NCBI GenBank assembly: GCA_015664885.1
Contig: DQPL01000064.1
Coordinates: 62,001-126,000 of the forward strand
Reading direction: 5' to 3'
Source: Gemmatimonadota bacterium
GTDB taxonomy: Bacteria > Gemmatimonadota > Gemmatimonadetes > Longimicrobiales > Gaopeijiaceae
DNA: 64,000 bases
This document shows, one piece after another, positions 26,715 to 39,609 of this stretch. A program made the position numbers and the translations under genes. Under the pieces are notes generated by a model. The model worked only from the letters and a program-made list of their open reading frames with translations, was not told where the DNA came from and ran no database searches. Numbering within the stretch: the first letter of the stretch is position 1; every line of letters starts with the position of its first letter.

Positions 26715-26866
26715 TGAATCATCTCCCCGAGCCTTGTCGGCTCCGTGGTTTAAAAGTAGCTGTTCACCAATCAGTACTCGGGGTTGGTCAGGACCGTTTA
26801 CATGGCGGACCCCTGACCTTAGACTGCGCGGCTTACCGCGTCGATGGCCGCATCAAGGAGTGAAGC

Positions 26867-27421
26867 ATGGAAGGGCGACAGGCCGCGCCATCGTTTGACG
26901 AGATCGCGGATCAGGTTCTGGAGATCTTCAACGGCGTCACAGACGAGGAGTTGACGCGTGATCTCCCGCTCATCGCCGAGCAAGGTGTGGACTCACTGGA
27001 TATGACCGAAGCAGCGTTCGACATCGAGGACCTCTTTGGCGTCGAATTCCCGGAACGAGATCCTCTGATTGAGTTGAGCAAGCGCCTTCCGCCTGACACC
27101 ATCATCAAGGAGGGGGTCCTAACGCCTCGGGGGAGAAAGCTTCTGCTCGAGCGGATGCCTGAACTTGACAGCGTCTCATTACCAGAAGAGCTCGCTGTCT
27201 ACGATGTGTCCCGATACTGGACCGTAGACACGTTCGCCCGGCTCGTCTCCGGTGTCTTCGCCCATGTGGTCCGAGAGCACGAAGCCGGCCGAACCCAAGC
27301 GGTCTGGGATGGAGAAGGATTCGTGCATCCGGATTCCGGGGAGTCCGTCGAACCGCCGCCCGGGGAAGAGCTGCTCGAGCTGTGGCTTGAACAAAAGGTG
27401 GCTGAAGAGCCGGACCCATGA
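26867..27421 (+). CDS. acyl carrier protein with C-terminal extension
   Basis: 184 aa, about twice the usual ACP length. Residues 10-85 form the ACP domain; the phosphopantetheine site is Ser43 in EQGVDSLDMTEAAFDIEDLFGVEF. The next ~100 residues (LTPRGRKLLLERMPE…SRYWTVDTFARLVSGVFAHVV…) are an unrecognised helical domain plus an acidic tail. The start is MEGRQAAPSF, with AAGGAG a few bases upstream. Its last four bases overlap the ketosynthase start (ATGA), so the two are translationally coupled. It should carry acyl intermediates for the following ketosynthases. Confidence 0.85.
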   Translation: MEGRQAAPSFDEIADQVLEIFNGVTDEELTRDLPLIAEQGVDSLDMTEAAFDIEDLFGVEFPERDPLIELSKRLPPDTIIKEGVLTPRGRKLLLERMPELDSVSLPEELAVYDVSRYWTVDTFARLVSGVFAHVVREHEAGRTQAVWDGEGFVHPDSGESVEPPPGEELLELWLEQKVAEEPDP

Positions 27422-28575
27422 CCTCTTTCGCGGTCCCTTCCCATGCCATTGTGGCTCCGGGAGACCTCGACTACCCAGACTTCGTCGCCGGTCGTTCGGC
27501 CGTGGTTCGCTTGCCCGAGACGTTTCCGGTACGCGTGGGCGCCCCGCTACCGGAAGACGTCTGCCCACCCCACGCCAACGCTGAGCTCATCATGCCACGG
27601 GGCGTGGCGCTCGCACTCGAGGCATGTGACCGCCTTGAGTACGACCCCGACGCCCACTATGGGCTCGTGCTGGCGCTCCCCACTTTGCGTGCCGAGCCAG
27701 AGTTCGTCGAGCGCTCGCTCGACGCCGTCGGAGACCCCAGCGGTTTGATTCCGGTGCGCAGCTTCTTCGGAGAAGCTCCGCTGGCCGAGGTTGCGGAGCA
27801 CCTGGGGGTGGACGGCCCCCGAGTGCGAGTTGATACCGCGTGCGCCTCAGGAAGCGACGCCTTGATCTTCGCCCATCAGTGGCTTGAAGCCGGTGCCGTC
27901 GAGGACGTGATCGTCGTTGCATCCACGGCCATGTTGAATCCCCTCGGCGTAGCCGGATTCAACAACTTGGGGACGTTGAGCCGCGACGACGACCTGCGCG
28001 CGAGCCGACCGTTCGACTTGGCGCGAAACGGGTTCGTCATGGGAGAGGGCGCCGCGGGCATGTGGCTGAGCAGCCGCTCGCACACATCCGCGCCGGGATA
28101 CCTGAGCGGCTACGGACAGTCGATGAACGCAACGCACATGACAGGGGTCCCCGAAGACATCGGCGTCATGCTGCGCGCCTGTAGGTCCGCGCTGGCCCGC
28201 GTGCCCAACCCAGGGAAGGACCTGGCCTACATCTCGGCCCACGGCACCGCCACCAGAGCCAACGACGCGGCAGAGATACGAGTATACCGAGAGTTGCTCG
28301 GTGAAGATCGAGCAGGGGTCGCCATCAGTTCCCTGAAGTCCATGATCGGCCACTGTCTCGGAGCCTCCTCACTCATAGAAGCGTGCGTCTGTCTGGATAT
28401 CCTGATAAACGGTCAGGCGACGCCTACCATCAACCTCGAAGTCCCCGAGCCGAATTCGGGCCTCGATTTCGTGCCCAATAAAGCTAAAGAGGTCTCGGGA
28501 GATTTCGTTCTGTCCAACGCGTTCGGATTCGGCGGGCACAACAGTTCGCTACTGTTCTCCCGGGGCCAATTCTAG
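27418..28575 (+). CDS. beta-ketoacyl-ACP synthase
   Basis: 385 aa, slightly shorter than FabF. The condensing triad is intact: Cys142 in VDTACASGSDAL, His275 in SAHGTATRAND and His312 in KSMIGHCLGASS with Lys307. The glycine-rich C-terminal SNAFGFGGHNSSLLF is typical. The N-terminal ~100 residues are more divergent than in fatty-acid FabF. It catalyses decarboxylative Claisen condensation on ACP-bound chains. It sits between the extended ACP and a second ketosynthase-like gene, with overlaps at both ends, so the three form one expression unit. Confidence 0.92.
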   Translation: MTSFAVPSHAIVAPGDLDYPDFVAGRSAVVRLPETFPVRVGAPLPEDVCPPHANAELIMPRGVALALEACDRLEYDPDAHYGLVLALPTLRAEPEFVERSLDAVGDPSGLIPVRSFFGEAPLAEVAEHLGVDGPRVRVDTACASGSDALIFAHQWLEAGAVEDVIVVASTAMLNPLGVAGFNNLGTLSRDDDLRASRPFDLARNGFVMGEGAAGMWLSSRSHTSAPGYLSGYGQSMNATHMTGVPEDIGVMLRACRSALARVPNPGKDLAYISAHGTATRANDAAEIRVYRELLGEDRAGVAISSLKSMIGHCLGASSLIEACVCLDILINGQATPTINLEVPEPNSGLDFVPNKAKEVSGDFVLSNAFGFGGHNSSLLFSRGQF

Positions 28576-29366
28576 TGCTGCGGCTGGCGGCGTTCAGCGC
28601 CGCGCTCACTCGGCCGCTCGGCACGTGCATGGATCTGCCGAACGTGACGTTGGTCGAGTACGAGGACGACGAGCAGCGACGAGCACCCGCATCGGCGTAC
28701 GCGCTCGACGCGCTCTCGCGCCTCGAGGTGCCGACCGACGCTCGTGTCGTGACAATTTCAGGACCGCCGGGCAAGTTCATTCATCACATGGAGCCAATCA
28801 GGCAGCGCTCACCGGACGGCCGCCTTATGGGCCCCAAGCTGGCCCGCCGGCTGCGCCGGCTCCATCCCTACGGGCTCCTGCTCTGCCTTCAGAACCAGGT
28901 GTCAGCTGCGATCTCGATGGAGTTCGGCTTGACCGGGCCGTGTATGAACTTGATCGAAGGCACCACCGCTTTCGCCGACGCGCTCTGCACTCTGGAAGGA
29001 GGCAAGGACCACGAGACCACGCTGCTCGTAATGTCCTCCGCCGCAGACCGCCCTGAGCAGCGTGAGCTCACCAAGCTGAAGTTCCCCGACAGCGTGCTGG
29101 TCGAGGGCGCCATCTGCTTCCTGTTCTCGCCTGACGGGGAAATGGGACTAGTGGGAGCAACCGCTTCCGGAAGGGCAACGTCAGAGCCGAAAAAAACCAA
29201 CCCGAAGGAGAGGCCCGCCAGCCTCCCTCCGGGTTGGCCACATGCACCCTGTCTCGAGGGCGGCATGTGCGTTCTGTGGGCGCTGGCATCCGGTATCCCG
29301 TCCAAGCGCTTTTGGCTCTCAGACGGTCACGGCTACCAGACGTCCTTCGACTGGCAGAAGCTCTAG
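28575..29366 (+). CDS. ketosynthase-like protein (chain-length-factor / ketoacyl-synt_2 type)
   Basis: 263 aa starting with a GTG that shares a base with the ketosynthase stop (TAGTG). Ketosynthase-fold features include LHPYGLLLCLQNQVSAAISMEFGLTGPCMNLIEGTTAFADALCTLEGG and the ending LSDGHGYQTSFDW. The nucleophile position has no Cys-in-TACSS motif (MNLIEGTT instead) and the His motifs are absent. It therefore resembles the short catalytically inactive partner proteins (PF13723 type) found in aryl-polyene and other type-II systems. It probably pairs with the active ketosynthase to set chain length. Its stop overlaps that of the convergent porin gene. Confidence 0.78.
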   Translation: MLRLAAFSAALTRPLGTCMDLPNVTLVEYEDDEQRRAPASAYALDALSRLEVPTDARVVTISGPPGKFIHHMEPIRQRSPDGRLMGPKLARRLRRLHPYGLLLCLQNQVSAAISMEFGLTGPCMNLIEGTTAFADALCTLEGGKDHETTLLVMSSAADRPEQRELTKLKFPDSVLVEGAICFLFSPDGEMGLVGATASGRATSEPKKTNPKERPASLPPGWPHAPCLEGGMCVLWALASGIPSKRFWLSDGHGYQTSFDWQKL

Positions 29367-30051: not shown

Positions 30052-31806
30052 TCAAGGCGCGACTGGCGTAACCGCCGCAGTACCCTTTTCCGCCGTCCGA
30101 ATCCTGTGCACGCCTTCGAGCGGAAGAACGAAGACCTTCCCGTCCCCGATCTCTCCCGTGCGCGCGGAATCGAGAATTGCCTGCACCGTGACGTCCACGA
30201 ACGGCTCCGACACGCCGATGTCAATCATGACTTTTTCGGTCAAGTCCATCTTCACGGAGGTGCCTCGATACGTTTCCACGGTTCCCGCCTCGCCTCCATG
30301 ACCCTGCACACGACTGACCGTAAAGCCCGCGACGTCTGCCTGATAAAGCGCCTTCAGGACGTCACCCAAGGTTTCGGGGCGTACGATGGCCCGCACCAAC
30401 TTCGTGTCGCCGCCGCCCGGCTGACTCTGTGACTCGCCGGCTTCGCGAGGGAAGGCGGCGGGCCCCTGGCCATCACCGTTTGCAGCGCTCGCGCTGAGCT
30501 CCTCGCGGAGTATGAGCACCGCGCCCTCACCGGTCGCGTAGCCTTCCTCGCCGTGGGCGAAAAGGTCCATGCCGCGCTGCTCGAGATCCGCGAGCGGCCG
30601 CAAGGGAGTCACGAACTCGATGCTCTTGAGGATGATCAACGTAGCGATTCCGCTGTACGCGGCGACGGCGAGGACTGCAGCGGCCTGGATGCTAACCTGG
30701 CCCGGGTTCCCGAATAGGAGCCCGTCGGCGCCGCCGAACGCCGCGCTGGCGAAGACGCCCGTAAGGACGGCGCCGGTGGCTCCACCGACTCCGTGCGCCG
30801 CGAAGACGTCCAAGGAGTCATCGAGCCGCGTGCCTGCCCTCCAACGGATGATCCCGTAGCTAGGAAGCGCCGCGAGCGCGCCGATTGCCAGGGCCGACAT
30901 GGGCGAGACGAAGCCCGCGGCCGGCGTTACTGCCACAAGACCGACGACGATCGCCGTGGCCGCGCCAACGGCCGTGATCTGCTTCGAGAAGAAAGTGTCC
31001 AGAAGCGCCCACGCGACCAGCGTCGCGCATGGCGCCACGAGCGTGTTCACCACTCCGAGCGCGGCAAGACCATCCGCCGCCAGCGCGCTCCCGCCGTTGA
31101 ACCCCATCCAACCGAACCAGAGCAGGCCCGCGCCGAGAAGGACGAAGGGCACGTTGTGCGGGAGCATGGCCTGACGGCCATAATCCGTGCGCGGCCCCAG
31201 AACCAAAGCGGCCACCAGCGCTGCGGCACCCGCGTTGACGTGAACGACCGTTCCCCCGGCAAAGTCCAACGCACCCAGCCCGGCCAACCACCCACCGCCC
31301 CAGACCCAGTGCGCGACCGGGGCATAGACCAGCAGGCCCCAGAACGAGATGAAGGCCACGTAGGCGCCGAAGCGCATCCGACCCACTATCGCGCCCGAGA
31401 TCAGCGCGGCCGTGATGATGGCGAACGTCGCCTGGAACCCCATGAACAGCATGTCGGGAATGGTTCCGTTCGGCTGCATCCCCACGCCTTTCAGGAAGGC
31501 CATCGAGAGGTCGCCGACCACCGCCCCCCCCTCGCCGAACGCCAGCGAGTATCCGACAACGGCCCAGAGCACGCCCGCGAAGCCGAAGGCGATGAAGCTC
31601 ATCATCATCGTATTCAGGACGTTCTTGGAGCGGACCAAGCCACCGTAGAAGAACGCGAGGCCGGCCGTCATTAGCAGCACGAGGGCGGTGGAGGTCAGCA
31701 ACCAGGCTGTGTCTCCAGCGGAGATCGCGGCTCCTTCCTGTGCCGCCACCAGATCGGGGCTCAGCAACAAGTAGGTGCCCGCAAGGGCCAAAGCCGACAC
31801 GCGCAT
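30052..31806 (-). CDS. ammonium transporter (Amt) fused to a PII signalling domain
   Basis: 584 aa from the ATG with GGGAG eight bases upstream. Signal-like first helix, then an eleven-helix Amt domain (about 30-425): AFFYGGLVRSKNVLN, twin histidines in TVVHVNAGAAALVA and FAAHGVGGATGAVLTG, conserved WFGWMGFNGGS. A ~45-residue linker leads to a complete PII domain (about 468-580): TKLVRAIVRPETLGDVLKAL, ETYRGTS in the T-loop, GEIGDGKVFVLPLEGVHRIRT. The T-loop Tyr51 (uridylylation site) is replaced by Val (YRGTSVKM). The PII part should gate the channel in cis, responding to ATP/ADP and 2-oxoglutarate but not to GlnD. No separate glnK is adjacent. Confidence 0.94.
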   Translation of the reverse strand: MRVSALALAGTYLLLSPDLVAAQEGAAISAGDTAWLLTSTALVLLMTAGLAFFYGGLVRSKNVLNTMMMSFIAFGFAGVLWAVVGYSLAFGEGGAVVGDLSMAFLKGVGMQPNGTIPDMLFMGFQATFAIITAALISGAIVGRMRFGAYVAFISFWGLLVYAPVAHWVWGGGWLAGLGALDFAGGTVVHVNAGAAALVAALVLGPRTDYGRQAMLPHNVPFVLLGAGLLWFGWMGFNGGSALAADGLAALGVVNTLVAPCATLVAWALLDTFFSKQITAVGAATAIVVGLVAVTPAAGFVSPMSALAIGALAALPSYGIIRWRAGTRLDDSLDVFAAHGVGGATGAVLTGVFASAAFGGADGLLFGNPGQVSIQAAAVLAVAAYSGIATLIILKSIEFVTPLRPLADLEQRGMDLFAHGEEGYATGEGAVLILREELSASAANGDGQGPAAFPREAGESQSQPGGGDTKLVRAIVRPETLGDVLKALYQADVAGFTVSRVQGHGGEAGTVETYRGTSVKMDLTEKVMIDIGVSEPFVDVTVQAILDSARTGEIGDGKVFVLPLEGVHRIRTAEKGTAAVTPVAP

Positions 31807-32159
31807 CAGTCGCACTCCCTTTTTAAATAGTGGATCGGTTGAATCGCGGGTTTTCTGCCCAGACCCTTTGGCAAGCGTCGTACCACACGCGAAGCGGGGT
31901 GATTCGGCGCGGGCAGGATGCTGTATCCGGTTGTGGCAGAACACTTTCGACGATGAGGCCGGGACGCTCAGCCTTCCGTTCTTGCGGTCGCCAGGACGCA
32001 TCATGACACTTTTGAAGGATCTTTGCCACACACCGACAATTTTGTCGTATCGCGCGGCGGAAGCGACCGCTTAGCCGCTGTGTCAGAATCTTTTCAGCTC
32101 ATGCGTTGACTTCCGGAACGTGCGATGGGCGACGTTCGCTCTAGGATGAGGGGGTAGGC
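31807..32159. other. divergent intergenic region, no gene seen
   Basis: About 350 bases between the Amt-PII gene and the TonB-receptor remnant. It should contain the promoters of both. It is AT-richer near 32020-32110. I looked for a sigma-54 site upstream of the transporter; the best GG/GC pair (minus strand near 31855) has 11 rather than 10 bases between the doublets, so I do not claim one. No RNA or conserved ORF is evident. Confidence 0.5.
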
Positions 32160-33147: not shown

Positions 33148-34944
33148 GTGCGGATCGACGGGAGGCGCGGCCGGTGGGCCGCATCAGGACTCTTCACGCT
33201 GGCGGCGGTATTCACGCCGCCCGGCATTGCGGCACAGAGCGCTGCCTACTTGGACTTCGACGATCTGACGGCAGAGCTACGCTCGATCGTCGACTCTTCG
33301 GACCGGGCCACGATGCGATCTCTGGGAACTTCACATCAGGGCCGTGAGATCTGGCTGGTCGAGATCGCGGATGCATCGGGACCGCCTCTCGCGAAACGGC
33401 CCGGGGTCCTGGTGGTGGGCAACCTGTCGGGTGACCACTTGGTGGGTAGCAGCCTAGCACTCGAGACAGTCCGATATCTCATCGACGCCGACGCGTCGGA
33501 AGCCGACCTGACTGAGCACGTCATCTACGTGGTCCCGCGGCTCAACCCGGACGGCGCCGAGGCGATGTTCAACGGTCCGCGGGACGGGAACCGGCTCAAC
33601 GCGCTCGAGTTCGATGCCGACAATGACGATCGCATGAACGAAGACGCGGCGGACGACTTGAACGGCGACGGCGTCATCACGGTCATGCGCGTGCCCGACC
33701 CGCTCGGTGCCTACATGATCGACCCGGACGAGCCACGCCTCATGAAAGAGGCCGACGCAGCCCAGGGGGAAACCGGGACGCACGCTCTCTACTGGGAGGG
33801 AATCGACAACGATGGCGACGGCTTCATCAACGAAGACGGCTTCGGTGGCGTAGACCTCGACCGCCATTTCCAACACGAGTACCCGTACTGGGAGCGCGAC
33901 GCCGGGTACAACATGGTGGGTCAGCCCGAGGCGCGGGCGCTCATGGACTTCGTAATCGGGACGCGCAACATCGCCGCCGTTGTAGCCTTCGGGCACAGCG
34001 ACAACCTGGTGACGCCTCCCAACTCGAGTGGTCGGCTGACTGACGCGACCGAGCTCGACCTCAACGGCTTCGCCGACGCGTCCAGCGACGAGATCTTCTC
34101 GCAGGGCCTGTTCGGAACGCCCTTCCAGCGGGGCGGCCTCCAGTTGCGCGGCGCCCAGCCCGGGAGGGATAACGATCCGAGCTCTGGGCAGCGCCCGGCG
34201 ACAACAGTCAACGATTCCGACATCGAGTACTTCGAGACCGTGTCCGAGGTGTACAAGGATATCACGGGCATCGAGGAGGTCGTGATCAACAAGGCCGCGG
34301 CCGGAGCGTTTTTCCAGTACGCCTACTATCACTTCGGCGTGCCGAGCTTCAGCACGCAGGGATGGGCACTTCCGAGGGGAGACGAAGAAGAAGACGAGGG
34401 TTCGGGCAGCGGGGACGCACGAGTTCTTTCAGGCTTCGACGCCGCCGGCGAGGACGTCTTCGTCCCCTGGTCCACCTATCAGCACCCGGACCTCGGTGAG
34501 GTCGAGATCGGGGGCTTCCGACCGTACGTGGTGACGAATCCGGCACCGTCCACCTTGCCGGACCTGGGTGCGGCGCATGGCGAGTTCATAGCCCACTTGT
34601 CGACGATGCTGCCGCGCGTGCGCATCGCGAGCACGGAGGTCGAAGCCCACGGCGGAGGCGTGTTCACGGTCACCGCCCACGTTCAGAACACAGGGTACTT
34701 CCCGTCGGCACTGCAGCACGGTGTGCGCTCCCGTTCGGTCGATCCGGTCAGCGTGCAAATCCAGGTCGAAGCGGAAGACATCCTTACCGGCGCTGCCAAG
34801 ACGCACATGATTCAGAAGCTCAATGGCTCCGGGACCACGCAAACCGTCTCCTGGGTGATCCAGGGCCGCGACGGCACTTCCGTGGAAATCCGGGTACGCG
34901 CCGAGAAGGGTGGATCCGACACCGCTACCGTGACGTTGAGGTGA
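33148..34944 (+). CDS. M14 carboxypeptidase-like protein lacking catalytic residues
   Basis: 598 aa from a GTG with AAGGAG six bases upstream; signal peptide ends GIAAQ. The fold matches the next gene (LGTSHQGREIWLVEIAD, PRLNPDGAEAMF). Two calcium-type acidic loops are seen: DADNDDRMNEDAADDLNGDGV and DNDGDGFINEDGFGGVDLD. However the zinc motif HGNE of the neighbour is here SGDH, the third ligand FHNSGG is FGHSDN and the catalytic Glu region SFSNELW is SFSTQGW. All metal and catalytic positions are changed, so it is probably a pseudoenzyme, perhaps a binding or regulatory partner. Its stop overlaps a GTG at the start of the next gene (GTGA). Confidence 0.88.
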   Translation: MRIDGRRGRWAASGLFTLAAVFTPPGIAAQSAAYLDFDDLTAELRSIVDSSDRATMRSLGTSHQGREIWLVEIADASGPPLAKRPGVLVVGNLSGDHLVGSSLALETVRYLIDADASEADLTEHVIYVVPRLNPDGAEAMFNGPRDGNRLNALEFDADNDDRMNEDAADDLNGDGVITVMRVPDPLGAYMIDPDEPRLMKEADAAQGETGTHALYWEGIDNDGDGFINEDGFGGVDLDRHFQHEYPYWERDAGYNMVGQPEARALMDFVIGTRNIAAVVAFGHSDNLVTPPNSSGRLTDATELDLNGFADASSDEIFSQGLFGTPFQRGGLQLRGAQPGRDNDPSSGQRPATTVNDSDIEYFETVSEVYKDITGIEEVVINKAAAGAFFQYAYYHFGVPSFSTQGWALPRGDEEEDEGSGSGDARVLSGFDAAGEDVFVPWSTYQHPDLGEVEIGGFRPYVVTNPAPSTLPDLGAAHGEFIAHLSTMLPRVRIASTEVEAHGGGVFTVTAHVQNTGYFPSALQHGVRSRSVDPVSVQIQVEAEDILTGAAKTHMIQKLNGSGTTQTVSWVIQGRDGTSVEIRVRAEKGGSDTATVTLR

Positions 34945-34949
34945 GGACG

Positions 34950-36734
34950 ATGAATACGATGAAGAAGCGCACGGTGACGGTGCTCACGCTCGTGCTGGGC
35001 ACGGTGTTCGCGGCTCCTATGCTGGACGCACCGCGGCTGCAAGCACAACAGCGCGGCTCGGACCCCGAGCATACGCTTCCGCTCACGTGGGACCGTTGGC
35101 TCGACCACGACGAAATCGGGGAGCGCATGCAGCTCATGCAGCGCACCTGGCCCGATCTCCTTTCGCTGCAGTCTCTGGGCAACAGCTTCGGCGGCCGCGA
35201 GATGTGGCTCATGACCATCAACAACCCCAGGACCGGTAGCGAGCTCGAGAAGGCGGGCATGTTCATCGAGGCGAACGTGCACGGCAACGAGATCCAGGGC
35301 GGCGAAGTCGCGCTCTACACGATCTGGTATCTCATGGAGAACTACGGCGAGATCGACGAGATCACGCGCCTGGTCGACGAGCGGGTGTTCTACATCCTGC
35401 CGACCGTGAACCCGGACGGGCGGGATTACTTCCTGGACAACGCGGGCTCGGGCGCACGCACCGGTCACATCCCGGTCGATTCGGATGGGGACGGCCTCTT
35501 CGACGAGGACCCGCCCAACGATCTGAATGGCAACGGCGTCATCGAACAAATCCGAAAATACACACCCGGTGCCGGCAATTTCCGCGAGAGCGAGCAAGAC
35601 CCGCGCATCATGGTCCCGGTGGAACCCGGCAGCGTCGGCGACTGGGTGATGCTCGGCTCCGAAGGCATCGACGATGACGGCGACGGCCGCGTCAACGAAG
35701 ATCCGGTCGGCGGATACGATCCCAACCGGAACTACGCCTCGGACTGGCAGCCCAACTACATCCAGGGCGGAAGCATGGACTACCCGTTCCAGCTTCCGGA
35801 GGCACGCGCGATCAACGATTTCATGGTGGCGCGCCCCAACATCGCAGGCTTCCAGTCCTTCCATAACTCGGGCGGCATGATCCTGCGACCGCCAGGATCC
35901 GCGTGGTACGGCCAGTACCCAAGCGCCGACATTCGTGTCTACGACGAGATCGGCGAGACCGGCGAGCGCATGCTGCCCTACTACGACTACCTCGTCATCT
36001 GGCGCGGCCTCTACACGGTGCACGGCGGCTCGATCGACTGGACCAACGACGGACTCGGCATCATCTCCTTCTCCAACGAGCTCTGGAACGGAGGGCAGTA
36101 CTTCAACAGCCCACTGCTGCAGGAGCAGCAGAGCGGCGACTCTCCGATTTCTGGGCAGCAGTCGCGCTACTTCTTCGATGACCTGCTCGAGTTCGGCGAT
36201 CAGTACGTGGAGTGGGCCCCGTTCCAGCACCCCACGCTCGGCGCGGTAGAGATGGGCGGCTTCCACAAGCTCTCGGGCCGCGTGAACCCGCGTTTCCTGA
36301 GTATGGAGCTCTTCCACCGCAACATGGCGTTCACGCTGTACCACGCAGATATGATGCCCATGATGTCCATGGGCGAGACATCGGTGGAGCTCGTGAGTGG
36401 AGACCTGTATCGCGTGAGGGTCGACGTCCGAAACGAGCGCCTCATTCCGACCATCACGGTGAAGGGACGGCAAAACAACGTCGTGCGGCCGGATATCCTC
36501 TCGGTGGACGGCGATGTGAACATCGTGGCCGCGGGCTGGGTCACCGACAAGAACCGGCCGGGCCCGACCCAGATGATCGATCAGTCGGAGCTGGACCGCA
36601 TCCTGCTGCGCAGCGGTGCGCCGGGCCGCCATACGCGAACCATCGAATACCTGGTGCGCGGCTCGGGTTCGATGACGGTCGAGTACTCGTCGATCAAAGG
36701 CGGGACTGTGCGCACGACCGTACAGTTGCGTTAG
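34950..36734 (+). CDS. M14 zinc carboxypeptidase
   Basis: 594 aa from ATG at 34950 (GAGG just upstream; another in-frame ATG at 34959). Signal peptide (TVLTLVLGTVFAAPM…LQAQ). Zinc ligands: HGNE in IEANVHGNEIQGGE and His in FQSFHNSGGM; catalytic Glu in ISFSNELWNGG. Calcium-type loops SDGDGLFDEDPPNDLNGNGV and DDDGDGRVNEDPVGGYD parallel those of the preceding paralogue. A C-terminal beta domain (RVDVRNERLIPTITVKGRQ) follows. It removes C-terminal residues from peptides outside the cytoplasm. It forms a coupled pair with the inactive paralogue, followed 61 bases later by a third family member. Confidence 0.93.
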   Translation: MNTMKKRTVTVLTLVLGTVFAAPMLDAPRLQAQQRGSDPEHTLPLTWDRWLDHDEIGERMQLMQRTWPDLLSLQSLGNSFGGREMWLMTINNPRTGSELEKAGMFIEANVHGNEIQGGEVALYTIWYLMENYGEIDEITRLVDERVFYILPTVNPDGRDYFLDNAGSGARTGHIPVDSDGDGLFDEDPPNDLNGNGVIEQIRKYTPGAGNFRESEQDPRIMVPVEPGSVGDWVMLGSEGIDDDGDGRVNEDPVGGYDPNRNYASDWQPNYIQGGSMDYPFQLPEARAINDFMVARPNIAGFQSFHNSGGMILRPPGSAWYGQYPSADIRVYDEIGETGERMLPYYDYLVIWRGLYTVHGGSIDWTNDGLGIISFSNELWNGGQYFNSPLLQEQQSGDSPISGQQSRYFFDDLLEFGDQYVEWAPFQHPTLGAVEMGGFHKLSGRVNPRFLSMELFHRNMAFTLYHADMMPMMSMGETSVELVSGDLYRVRVDVRNERLIPTITVKGRQNNVVRPDILSVDGDVNIVAAGWVTDKNRPGPTQMIDQSELDRILLRSGAPGRHTRTIEYLVRGSGSMTVEYSSIKGGTVRTTVQLR

Positions 36735-36795
36735 CTCGGAGCAAGTCTCGCCCCTACATTCGCGACCCATTTCACGACCGATTCCGGAGAGTCCC

Positions 36796-39609
36796 GTGCT
36801 CCGCATTTCGAGCAATCATGCCCTGTTGATGACCGCCGCCGCGCTGCTCGGCACAGCGCCGCTCACTGCTCAGATCCCGACGCCCGAGCAGCACTTCGGA
36901 TTTTCCATGGGCACCGACAAGCAGCTCGCCCGCTGGGACGAGATCCTGGAATACTTCACGCTGATCGCGGATGCCTCGGACCGGATCCAAGTCGATACCG
37001 CGGGGCCGACCACATTAGGAGCCGAATTCATTTCGGTTACGATGTCCTCGCCGGCGAACCTGGCGCAGCTGGACGAGATCCGGGACGCGTCGAAACGCAT
37101 CGCTGACGGGCGCATCTCCCGGGTGGAGGCACAGCGCATAGCGGACAACACACCCGCGACCGCCTTCATCAACCACAATATCCACTCGACCGAGATCGGC
37201 TCGTCACAGACGAGCGTGGACTTGGTCTATCTGCTCGCCACCGGGGACGACGACGTCACCCGGGAGATCCTCGACAACGTCGTCACCGTGCTCATCCCCT
37301 CGGCCAATCCGGACGGGCAGATCATGGTGACCGACTGGTACCGCCGGAACGTGGGTACCGAGCACGAGCGCGCGCGCATGCCCTGGCTCTACCACCACTA
37401 CGCCGGGCACGACAACAACCGGGACTTCTTCCAGGCCAATCTGGTAGAGACGCAGTACTGGATGGAGCTGATGTACCACAGGACCTACCCTCAGCTCTAC
37501 CTCGACCAGCACCAGATGGGCAGCAGCGGCCCGCGCATCTTCGTGCCGCCCTACCCCGATCCCATGAACCCCGACGTGCACCCGTTGCAGTGGCAGCAGC
37601 TGCGCTTCATGGGCGGCGGCATGGTCGCAGACCTGCAAGCCCAGGGCAAGCAGGGCGTGGTCACGGGTTCGATGTACCGCATCTGGGGCCAAGAAGGCGC
37701 GCTCACAGGGCGTTACCACAACATCGTCGCTCTGCTGACCGAGACCGCCAGCTCTCGCATCGCCAGCCCCGACACCGTCGAGCTCGCGGCGCTCGAGCGC
37801 GGTGCGGCGCCTGGACGCGGACTGGGCAACTACGGCTTCCAGATGGCGTTCGTCGACCCCTGGATGGGCGGCGAATGGAGGCTCGGCGACATCGTCGACT
37901 ACCAGACGATCGCCGCCATGTCCTATCTGGAGCAGACCGCCAAATTCAGCGAGCACTACATCATGGGTCGCTGGCAGATGTCGTCCGAGACCATCCAGAA
38001 AGGCGAGGACGTGGGGCCGCGCGCCTACGTGATTCCCCTTGACCAATCCGACCCGGTCGCGGCCGCCGAGATGGTCGACCGCCTTCTGCTGCAGGGGCTG
38101 GAAATCCACCGCACGACGCAGGCATTCGAGGCGGAAATCGAAGACGACCGGTGGAAGTCACCCGACGGCGGCGCGCTCGACGTCGAGGATGACGACGAGG
38201 GTGATGCCGATGAGGACGAAGGCCAGGACGAGGACGACGCGGGTCACGACGAAGACGATGACGAGGGCCACGACGACGACGATGAAGGCGACGAGGATGA
38301 CGCAGAAGGCGACGAGGATGACGCAGAAGGCCACGATGACGACGACGGCGAAGACGACGAGGACGTAGTGCGCAGTTTCCCGGCCGGGTCCTGGATCGTG
38401 TACGGAGCCCAGCCCGCGCGGGCAGCCGTGCTCGACCTCATCGAGCCGCGCCGCCGCGAGCTGCAGCATGAGTGGCCGGACGGCCCTTATGTGCGCAGCT
38501 ATGACGGGGCCGCCTATACCATGCCGATGCAGATGGGCGTCGAAGTGATGCGGGTGGACGACGCGTTCGACGTGGACACCGAGGTCGCAATGGTCGGTCC
38601 GCTCACGGTGCCGCCGGTTCCGAACGCGAGTGATTGGTATGCAATCAGCGCGCAGGTCACACGCAGCTACCAGGCCGTGAACCGCATGCTGGACGCGGGA
38701 CTCGCGGTCTCCAAAGCCGAATCGGATGACGGTCCGGTCTTCGTCGTGCGTGCCGCAGCGCCACAAGCGCTCAGCCTGATCACCGAGGCCACCACAGATC
38801 TGGGCATCTCCGTGACCGCCGACCCCGAGGGGCTGCGCGACGTCATGCCGCAGCAGCCGAACCGGATCGGGCTCTACCAGGGCTGGGCGGGCGCGATGGA
38901 CGAAGGCTGGACGCGCTTCGTGTTCGAGGACTTCCAATACGCCTATGAGACGCTCGCCAATGCCGATGTACAGGCCGACGACCTCTCCGATCGCTTCGAC
39001 GTCATCGTCTTCCCCTCGGAGATCCCGCTCAATCGGTTGATCAACGGCGATACTTCCGCGGTGGTCCCGGAGGAATTCCGCGGCGGCATCGGCGACGATG
39101 GCGTCGAGAACCTGAAGGCGTTCGTACGCGCTGGTGGTACGCTGATCACGCTCGACCGCGCGGACGAGCTCGTGATGGAGCACTTCGGCGTGCCGGTGCG
39201 CAACGCGCTTCAGGGAGTAGGTCAGCCTGACTTCTACCTTCCGAGTTCACTGCTGCGCGTCGAGCTCGACGGTGAGCATCCGTTGACTTTGGGCAGCCCC
39301 GACGAGGTCGCGGCGAAGTGGGCAGGCGGACGTGCGTACGAGCCCACTGACTTCGGTGGCGAGGCGGGCCGAGTACGCGCAGTGGGCAGCTGGGCGGAGG
39401 ACTCGGATCGGGTTCTGATGAGTGGTCAGCTCATCGGTGCCGAGTTCCTGGCCGGCAAGGGCGCGATCCTGGACGTGGAATACGGCAGCGGGCGGATCCT
39501 CATGTACGGATTCCGGGTGCAGCATCGCGGCCAGACGCACGGCACGTTCAAGCTGCTCTTCAACGCCCTGCTCAAGAACTCGCCGCGCACCGCGACGCAA
39601 GACGGCTGA
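36796..39609 (+). CDS. large M14-family peptidase with internal acidic tract
   Basis: 937 aa from a GTG preceded by GGAGAG. Signal peptide ends LTAQIP. Zinc motif HSTE in INHNIHSTEIGSS, third ligand in LYLDQHQMGSSG and catalytic Glu in ALLTETASSR are intact, so it is likely active, unlike the first paralogue. Residues ~458-522 are almost only Asp, Glu, Gly, His and Ala (an Asp/Glu linker coded by imperfect 21-bp repeats). The C-terminal third contains a Rossmann-like glutamine-amidotransferase-type domain (FDVIVFPSEIPLNRLING, LITLDRADELVMEHFG). The acidic linker may bind calcium or stay extended in salt. Confidence 0.92.
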   Translation: MLRISSNHALLMTAAALLGTAPLTAQIPTPEQHFGFSMGTDKQLARWDEILEYFTLIADASDRIQVDTAGPTTLGAEFISVTMSSPANLAQLDEIRDASKRIADGRISRVEAQRIADNTPATAFINHNIHSTEIGSSQTSVDLVYLLATGDDDVTREILDNVVTVLIPSANPDGQIMVTDWYRRNVGTEHERARMPWLYHHYAGHDNNRDFFQANLVETQYWMELMYHRTYPQLYLDQHQMGSSGPRIFVPPYPDPMNPDVHPLQWQQLRFMGGGMVADLQAQGKQGVVTGSMYRIWGQEGALTGRYHNIVALLTETASSRIASPDTVELAALERGAAPGRGLGNYGFQMAFVDPWMGGEWRLGDIVDYQTIAAMSYLEQTAKFSEHYIMGRWQMSSETIQKGEDVGPRAYVIPLDQSDPVAAAEMVDRLLLQGLEIHRTTQAFEAEIEDDRWKSPDGGALDVEDDDEGDADEDEGQDEDDAGHDEDDDEGHDDDDEGDEDDAEGDEDDAEGHDDDDGEDDEDVVRSFPAGSWIVYGAQPARAAVLDLIEPRRRELQHEWPDGPYVRSYDGAAYTMPMQMGVEVMRVDDAFDVDTEVAMVGPLTVPPVPNASDWYAISAQVTRSYQAVNRMLDAGLAVSKAESDDGPVFVVRAAAPQALSLITEATTDLGISVTADPEGLRDVMPQQPNRIGLYQGWAGAMDEGWTRFVFEDFQYAYETLANADVQADDLSDRFDVIVFPSEIPLNRLINGDTSAVVPEEFRGGIGDDGVENLKAFVRAGGTLITLDRADELVMEHFGVPVRNALQGVGQPDFYLPSSLLRVELDGEHPLTLGSPDEVAAKWAGGRAYEPTDFGGEAGRVRAVGSWAEDSDRVLMSGQLIGAEFLAGKGAILDVEYGSGRILMYGFRVQHRGQTHGTFKLLFNALLKNSPRTATQDG
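38290..38331 (+). repeat. exact 21-bp tandem duplication inside acidic tract
   Basis: Two copies of GACGAGGATGACGCAGAAGGC in direct tandem inside the M14 gene, coding DEDDAEG twice. The surrounding 200 bases are GAC/GAG/GAT-rich with looser repeats. The repeat is in frame, so slippage would change linker length without breaking the protein. Confidence 0.9.

Follow-up and report, generated by a model that had tools for sequence, protein, structure and literature searches.

A cassette of three genes occupies positions 26867-29366 on the forward (+) strand of the window (the whole 64,000-nucleotide stretch of Gemmatimonadota DNA analysed here). It encodes an enlarged acyl carrier protein (ACP), then a ketosynthase (KS), then a half-size inactive KS (gene 3). 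We read it, at a probability of roughly 0.6, as a stand-alone minimal type II polyketide synthase (PKS) composed of KS, half-size chain-length factor (half-CLF) and ACP, which would use housekeeping enzymes acting in trans; this reading is drawn from the sequences. The original prediction, of a stripped-down system for type II polyketides or specialised fatty acids, proved to be the best-supported description, with the qualification that kinship of the KS with FabF was not rejected. The individual parts are of known kinds; their combination, the isolation of the cassette and the tail of the ACP are new.

Organisation, surroundings and conservation

The three genes overlap at both junctions, as had been claimed: the ACP and KS genes share an ATGA (27418-27421), and the KS and gene 3 meet in a TAGTG (28573-28577), a one-base overlap. 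The sister species (G001) retains the ATGA, and its second junction is TAGCGTG, a 1-base gap. The cassette would be expressed as one unit. Ahead of it lie a Shine-Dalgarno sequence and a promoter-like site (Table 1); the scan for such sites found 1 against 0.4 expected, and the sister species too has a TAGACT in a comparable position.

Table 1. Cassette features and their coordinates in the window; orthologs are those of the sister species
Feature	Position	Strand	Evidence
Promoter-like TTTACA-17-TAGACT, 5' of the ACP gene	26797..26825	+	consensus match only
Shine-Dalgarno AAGGAG, 6 bases before the ATG of the ACP gene	26855..26860	+	sequence; identical in sister species
Enlarged ACP, 184 aa	26867..27421	+	PF00550 at residues 18-65; 79% identical ortholog
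Phosphopantetheine Ser43 of ACP	codon 26993-26995	+	
ACP insert, about 48 residues (66-113), between helix II and the YWTVDTFARLV helix	27062..27205	+	hhalign homology
ACP C-terminal tail, residues 131-184	27257..27418	+	no family or PDB match
KS (KS-alpha-like), 385 aa	27418..28575	+	PF00109 + PF02801; 83% identical ortholog
KS Cys142	27841-27843	+	
KS His275	28240-28242	+	
KS Lys307	28336-28338	+	
KS His312	28351-28353	+	
Gene 3, half-size inactive KS (chain-length-factor-like), 263 aa	28575..29366	+	hhalign; 80% identical ortholog
Gene 3 Thr130, at the nucleophile position	28962-28964	+	

The sister species carries the whole cassette in the same gene order and synteny. An Amt/P-II gene and a second conserved gene without a Pfam match are neighbours common to both species, and the other flank is a tRNA-Ala in both. 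Ratios of dN/dS between the window and the sister species were 0.197 for the ACP, 0.173 for the KS and 0.226 for gene 3, compared with 0.114-0.212 for four neighbour genes. All three cassette genes are under purifying selection, as their neighbours are. Synteny, dN/dS and the ATGA junction kept in the sister species together indicate a cassette under selection, neither a contaminant nor an assembly accident; the window comes from a 3.96-Mb assembly in 136 contigs that is 99% complete.

Pfam scans covered 40 proteins of about 60 called ORFs in the window, the other ~20 being mostly small. No ketoreductase (KR), dehydratase (DH), acyltransferase (AT), thioesterase (TE) or adenylating enzyme was found close to the cassette among these 40, which bears out the expectation that KR, DH, TE and AT are missing nearby. 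At distances of roughly 15, 23 and 26 kb lie, respectively, a MaoC-like ORF, an alpha/beta hydrolase and an epimerase-family ORF. The scanned window genes are of xanthine-dehydrogenase/Cox type, amidohydrolases, peptidases, transporters and similar. The Amt/P-II neighbour is a 659-aa ORF on the minus strand (30052-32031), an ammonium transporter with a C-terminal P-II domain (PF00909 + PF00543). Three consecutive large ORFs follow at 33148-39609, and the two that were scanned are M14 zinc carboxypeptidases. In the sister species only, ~3.4 kb are present between the tRNA-Ala and a pterin-4a-carbinolamine dehydratase gene (L037:11794-15243); this stretch is missing from the window and is a possible island at the tRNA. 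Elsewhere the genome contains a distinct FabF next to an ACP, a further KS accompanied by FabA/FabZ-like genes (so labelled from a reading of the sequences) and two PPTase-domain matches. Contig C88 of the same genome (G000; L001, L003, L004) holds a PUFA-synthase-like type I PKS, with a PfaA-like KS-AT frame and a double-KS frame.

The distribution of the cassette is narrow. Within the family the gene 3 profile matched 2 of 121 genomes, each from this genus, and the gene 3 protein matched 3 of 395 genomes of the phylum, one of them probably by chance: the match in this third genome (G178, E 7.6e-4) fell in a transposase-like region. Only the two genus members, among 59 near relatives, matched the KS at full length; the next best match there was 43% over residues 126-382. 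At least 593 stretches, FabF-type KS genes, matched in a scan of genome contigs, and none of the 80 loci kept for the neighbour check had a gene 3 or long-ACP neighbour by HMM. No relative of the cassette appeared in scans of viral contigs; one full-length KS match at 27% (L091) was an ordinary KS without cassette neighbours. KS genes were also seen well inside IMG/VR contigs of 119-235 kb classed as viral (L081, L096, L100, L101). Two further sets of matches were set aside. A Cupriavidus plasmid match of the ACP lay inside an unrelated ORF, and matches in the Chloroflexi phylum (10/231 at E ≤ 0.01) look, by their ranges and frames, like short KS-core or low-complexity hits. The cassette does not form part of a larger known cluster, an outcome that had been named in advance as damaging to its interpretation.

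The three proteins

Residues 66-113 of the ACP form an insert that separates helix II from the last ACP helix. The same layout was found in ACPs of 136-141 aa from Streptomyces clusters (three plasmid clusters from the search and a fourth locus, L220) and from G288, a genome of the same class as ours. An hhalign comparison of the window ACP with these enlarged ACPs, using a template of four rows of which one is the G288 protein, gave a probability of 94% with a score of 49.6, shuffled controls reaching at most 19.7. By pairwise BLASTP the match to two Streptomyces enlarged ACPs alone was not significant, and that to the G288 ACP had an E of 3e-8 over 113 residues. Insert-bearing ACPs in a 298-genome sample of the phylum came, among the matches listed, from G288 and the two genus members only. 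The insert points to an ACP class common to distant phyla, of which a full-text search of the literature returned no description.

The ~100-residue C-terminal domain once thought unrecognised is, by hhalign, mostly the known enlarged-ACP insert plus the last helix, and what stays unrecognised is the last ~55 residues. The profile comparison suggested for this domain therefore divides it, relating the insert region to enlarged ACPs and leaving the tail without a relative: family and PDB searches gave no match for residues 131-184, and the two species share 82% identity over residues 141-184. AlphaFold2 modelled the ACP from a two-row alignment with a mean pLDDT of 44. Insert and tail probably keep the ACP private to its own KS/partner pair.

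Cys142, His275, Lys307 and His312 of the KS are invariant in both species, in agreement with the intact Cys-His-His triad (Cys142/His275/His312) ascribed to it from the start. Judged by these residues, it would count as an active KS in the sense used for canonical type II minimal PKSs.

Gene 3 had no match in a Pfam scan, PF13723 included, and a PF13723 search of the 59 relatives gave 0 matches. Its two-ortholog profile nonetheless aligned with FabF-type KSs at an hhalign score of 38.3, the maximum of 100 column shuffles being 20.4. The match is a single stretch, residues 94-185, aligned to the KS N-domain; within it KS Cys142 falls opposite Thr130, or Ala in the sister species, in an alignment taken from a shared G-P motif. 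The description of the second KS as short, chain-length-factor-like and without the Cys holds on all of these points. Nothing recognisable corresponds to the second half of a normal KS, and the C-terminal 70 residues have no detectable KS homology; retention of the last KS helix and strands seemed plausible on visual inspection and failed the shuffle test. Half-KS modules of Myxococcota were the closest match (hhalign 42.3; shuffle maximum 22.4), and 4 of 217 genomes in a sample of that phylum matched at E ≤ 0.01, the best at 7.8e-6 (G692). A half-KS-like protein of G288, considered as the nearest relative of gene 3, was rejected (21.7, shuffle maximum 21.6). The AlphaFold2 model of gene 3, from a two-row alignment, had a mean pLDDT of 32.

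Proposed mechanism and alternative readings

In the minimal PKS that we propose, Ser43 of the ACP would be converted to the holo-form by one of the genome's PPTases, and a housekeeping malonyl transferase would load it with malonyl. KS and gene 3 would form a KS/half-CLF heterodimer in which gene 3 may close the dimer face and shape the cavity, by analogy with ApeC for ApeO and AmcG for AmcF. This pair would carry out one or a few decarboxylative condensations on its dedicated ACP. Because no reductase is encoded beside the cassette, the direct product would be an unreduced beta-keto(poly)acyl-ACP, which may cyclise or be finished and released by enzymes encoded elsewhere. It speaks against a PKS that the cassette has no linked gene for tailoring, release or regulation, as biosynthetic clusters usually do. 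If active, the cassette would offer a type II synthase of unusually small size and genetic isolation, easily reconstituted from three proteins, and could show what a half-size partner is needed for and whether the ACP insert controls partner choice.

The lack of a linked reductase is in line with a specialised fatty-acid elongation module, an appreciably weaker candidate. The KS would then be a FabF paralogue with a private ACP, borrowing FabG, FabZ and FabI from primary metabolism to make an unusual fatty acyl chain, and gene 3 would tune chain length only. FabF models are indeed the best-scoring type for the KS, at 231.8 bits, under the TIGR03150 cut-off of 493.75. For phylogeny, 131 KS sequences were gathered and 73 retained, the L121-L199 FabF rows being thinned to one third and rows shorter than 250 aa removed; tree labels (aromKS, hrKS, ApeO, ApeR, AmcF) were assigned from gene context or NCBIfam score. 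Quick maximum-likelihood trees were built from 72, 55, 52 and 28 rows, the smaller sets omitting long-branch and near-duplicate rows. In the free trees the cassette KS stood outside the phylum's FabF clade and apart from AmcF. A joint clade with the phylum's FabF was nevertheless not rejected, with p-AU of 0.80 (55 rows) and 0.64 (52 rows), so that of the doubts first raised about the KS a place tightly inside FabF finds no support, but a sister-group relationship to FabF was not rejected. The very long stem of the cassette KS pair speaks against the fatty-acid module, at 3.8, 3.7, 2.3 and 2.1 changes per column in the 72-, 55-, 52- and 28-row trees against median end branches of 0.55, 0.53, 0.44 and 0.46. 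So do the separate FabF with its adjacent ACP elsewhere in the genome, the dedicated half-size partner and the enlarged ACP.

A divergent member of the cispentacin/coronafacate KS-CYF systems (AmcF-AmcG-AmcB), performing one C2 elongation and a cyclisation, is unlikely. The likeness lies in small gene number and in a short KS whose gene adjoins that of a motif-less short partner; a joint clade with AmcF was not rejected either (p-AU 0.33, 28-row tree). For AmcF-AmcG the available text of PMC10698177 describes a purified heterodimer and a predicted KS-CLF-like structure. The cassette matches the NCBIfam models only weakly, with AmcF (NF058662) at 157.7 bits and AmcB at 16.4 bits, far under the respective cut-offs of 325 and 80 bits. 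Compared with AmcG proteins from Streptomyces loci, gene 3 scored 17.8 by hhalign, which is background, shuffles reaching 23.6. Furthermore, no AmcH-like adenylating acyltransferase occurs among the 40 scanned window proteins, and the cassette ACP belongs to a different type.

That the cassette is a decaying or non-biosynthetic FabF/ACP duplicate with gene 3 as a degenerating copy, as loss of the nucleophile and C-terminal half and the lack of a linked pathway among the scanned window proteins might suggest, is very improbable: each of the three genes is under purifying selection, the two species match in what is lost and what is conserved, and the junctions are conserved in both.

Comparison with known systems

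Like the aryl polyene pair ApeO-ApeC, the cassette joins an active KS (by its residues) to a half-size partner in which only the first thiolase half is detectable. Gene 3, however, has no match to PF13723, of which we take ApeC to be a member. The cassette also differs in lacking a KR, DH or second KS (40 window proteins scanned) and in its enlarged ACP, and its KS did not group with ApeO in the tree, in which branches are long. In the part of PMC8358021 available, ApeC is described as the half-size partner of ApeO, with one thiolase domain kept and the other almost lost.

The canonical type II minimal PKS shares an adjacent KS homologue without the Cys (T130/Ala here), but its CLF is full-length, ~400 aa versus the 263 aa of gene 3. 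Against the model for housekeeping FabF, the cassette KS falls short of the TIGR03150 cut-off already given.

Type II PKS clusters of Streptomyces (NZ_CP108708, NZ_CP109562, NZ_CP108465, NZ_CP108801) have ACPs of 136-137 aa with the same insert. These adjoin KS genes in clusters with MCAT and holo-ACP synthase; unlike the cassette, the clusters include tailoring genes as well as MCAT and several full KS genes, and their ACPs are without the 55-residue tail. At L243-L245:13500-15900, also in Streptomyces, a KS protein of ~790 aa (a double KS match in L243) has an enlarged ACP and two single KS genes as its neighbours.

The Myxococcota half-KS modules (G692/G702; L246, L261) give gene 3 its best sequence match; they differ in being N-terminal fusions to a second KS, within a multi-KS locus. 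The fusion proteins, of 722/723 aa, have the inactive half-KS before a full KS and come directly after another KS; the one in L261 is itself followed by one more KS and an SDR-like ORF.

Similar in layout is the G288 cluster (L262:3536-13922), which unites an enlarged ACP and a KS with a half-KS-like protein of 251 aa. It runs from a radical SAM gene through a 102-aa ORF without a Pfam match, PPTase, the 251-aa protein, KS, SDR, enlarged ACP and FabA-like dehydratase to a 433-aa protein without a Pfam match, a zinc dehydrogenase and a divergent KS. The 251-aa protein is called half-KS-like by layout, has no Pfam match and is not detectably related to gene 3. The additional PPTase, SDR, FabA-like dehydratase and other genes set the cluster apart, and comparison of the two gene sets suggests that the cassette is, in layout, a reduced relative of it.

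The literature searched, including the accessible portions of PMC10132072 and PMC9582728, yielded no description of a stand-alone cassette of this type or of the ACP insert; the catalogue in PMC10132072, as far as available, names 14 phyla, Gemmatimonadetes not among them. We tentatively raise the possibility that the cassette represents a third, independent KS/half-CLF lineage beside ApeO-ApeC and AmcF-AmcG, and the smallest complete set known (KS, half-size partner and ACP), in which insert and tail of the ACP would act as the specificity element and the product might be short, unreduced or cyclised, and specific to the genus.
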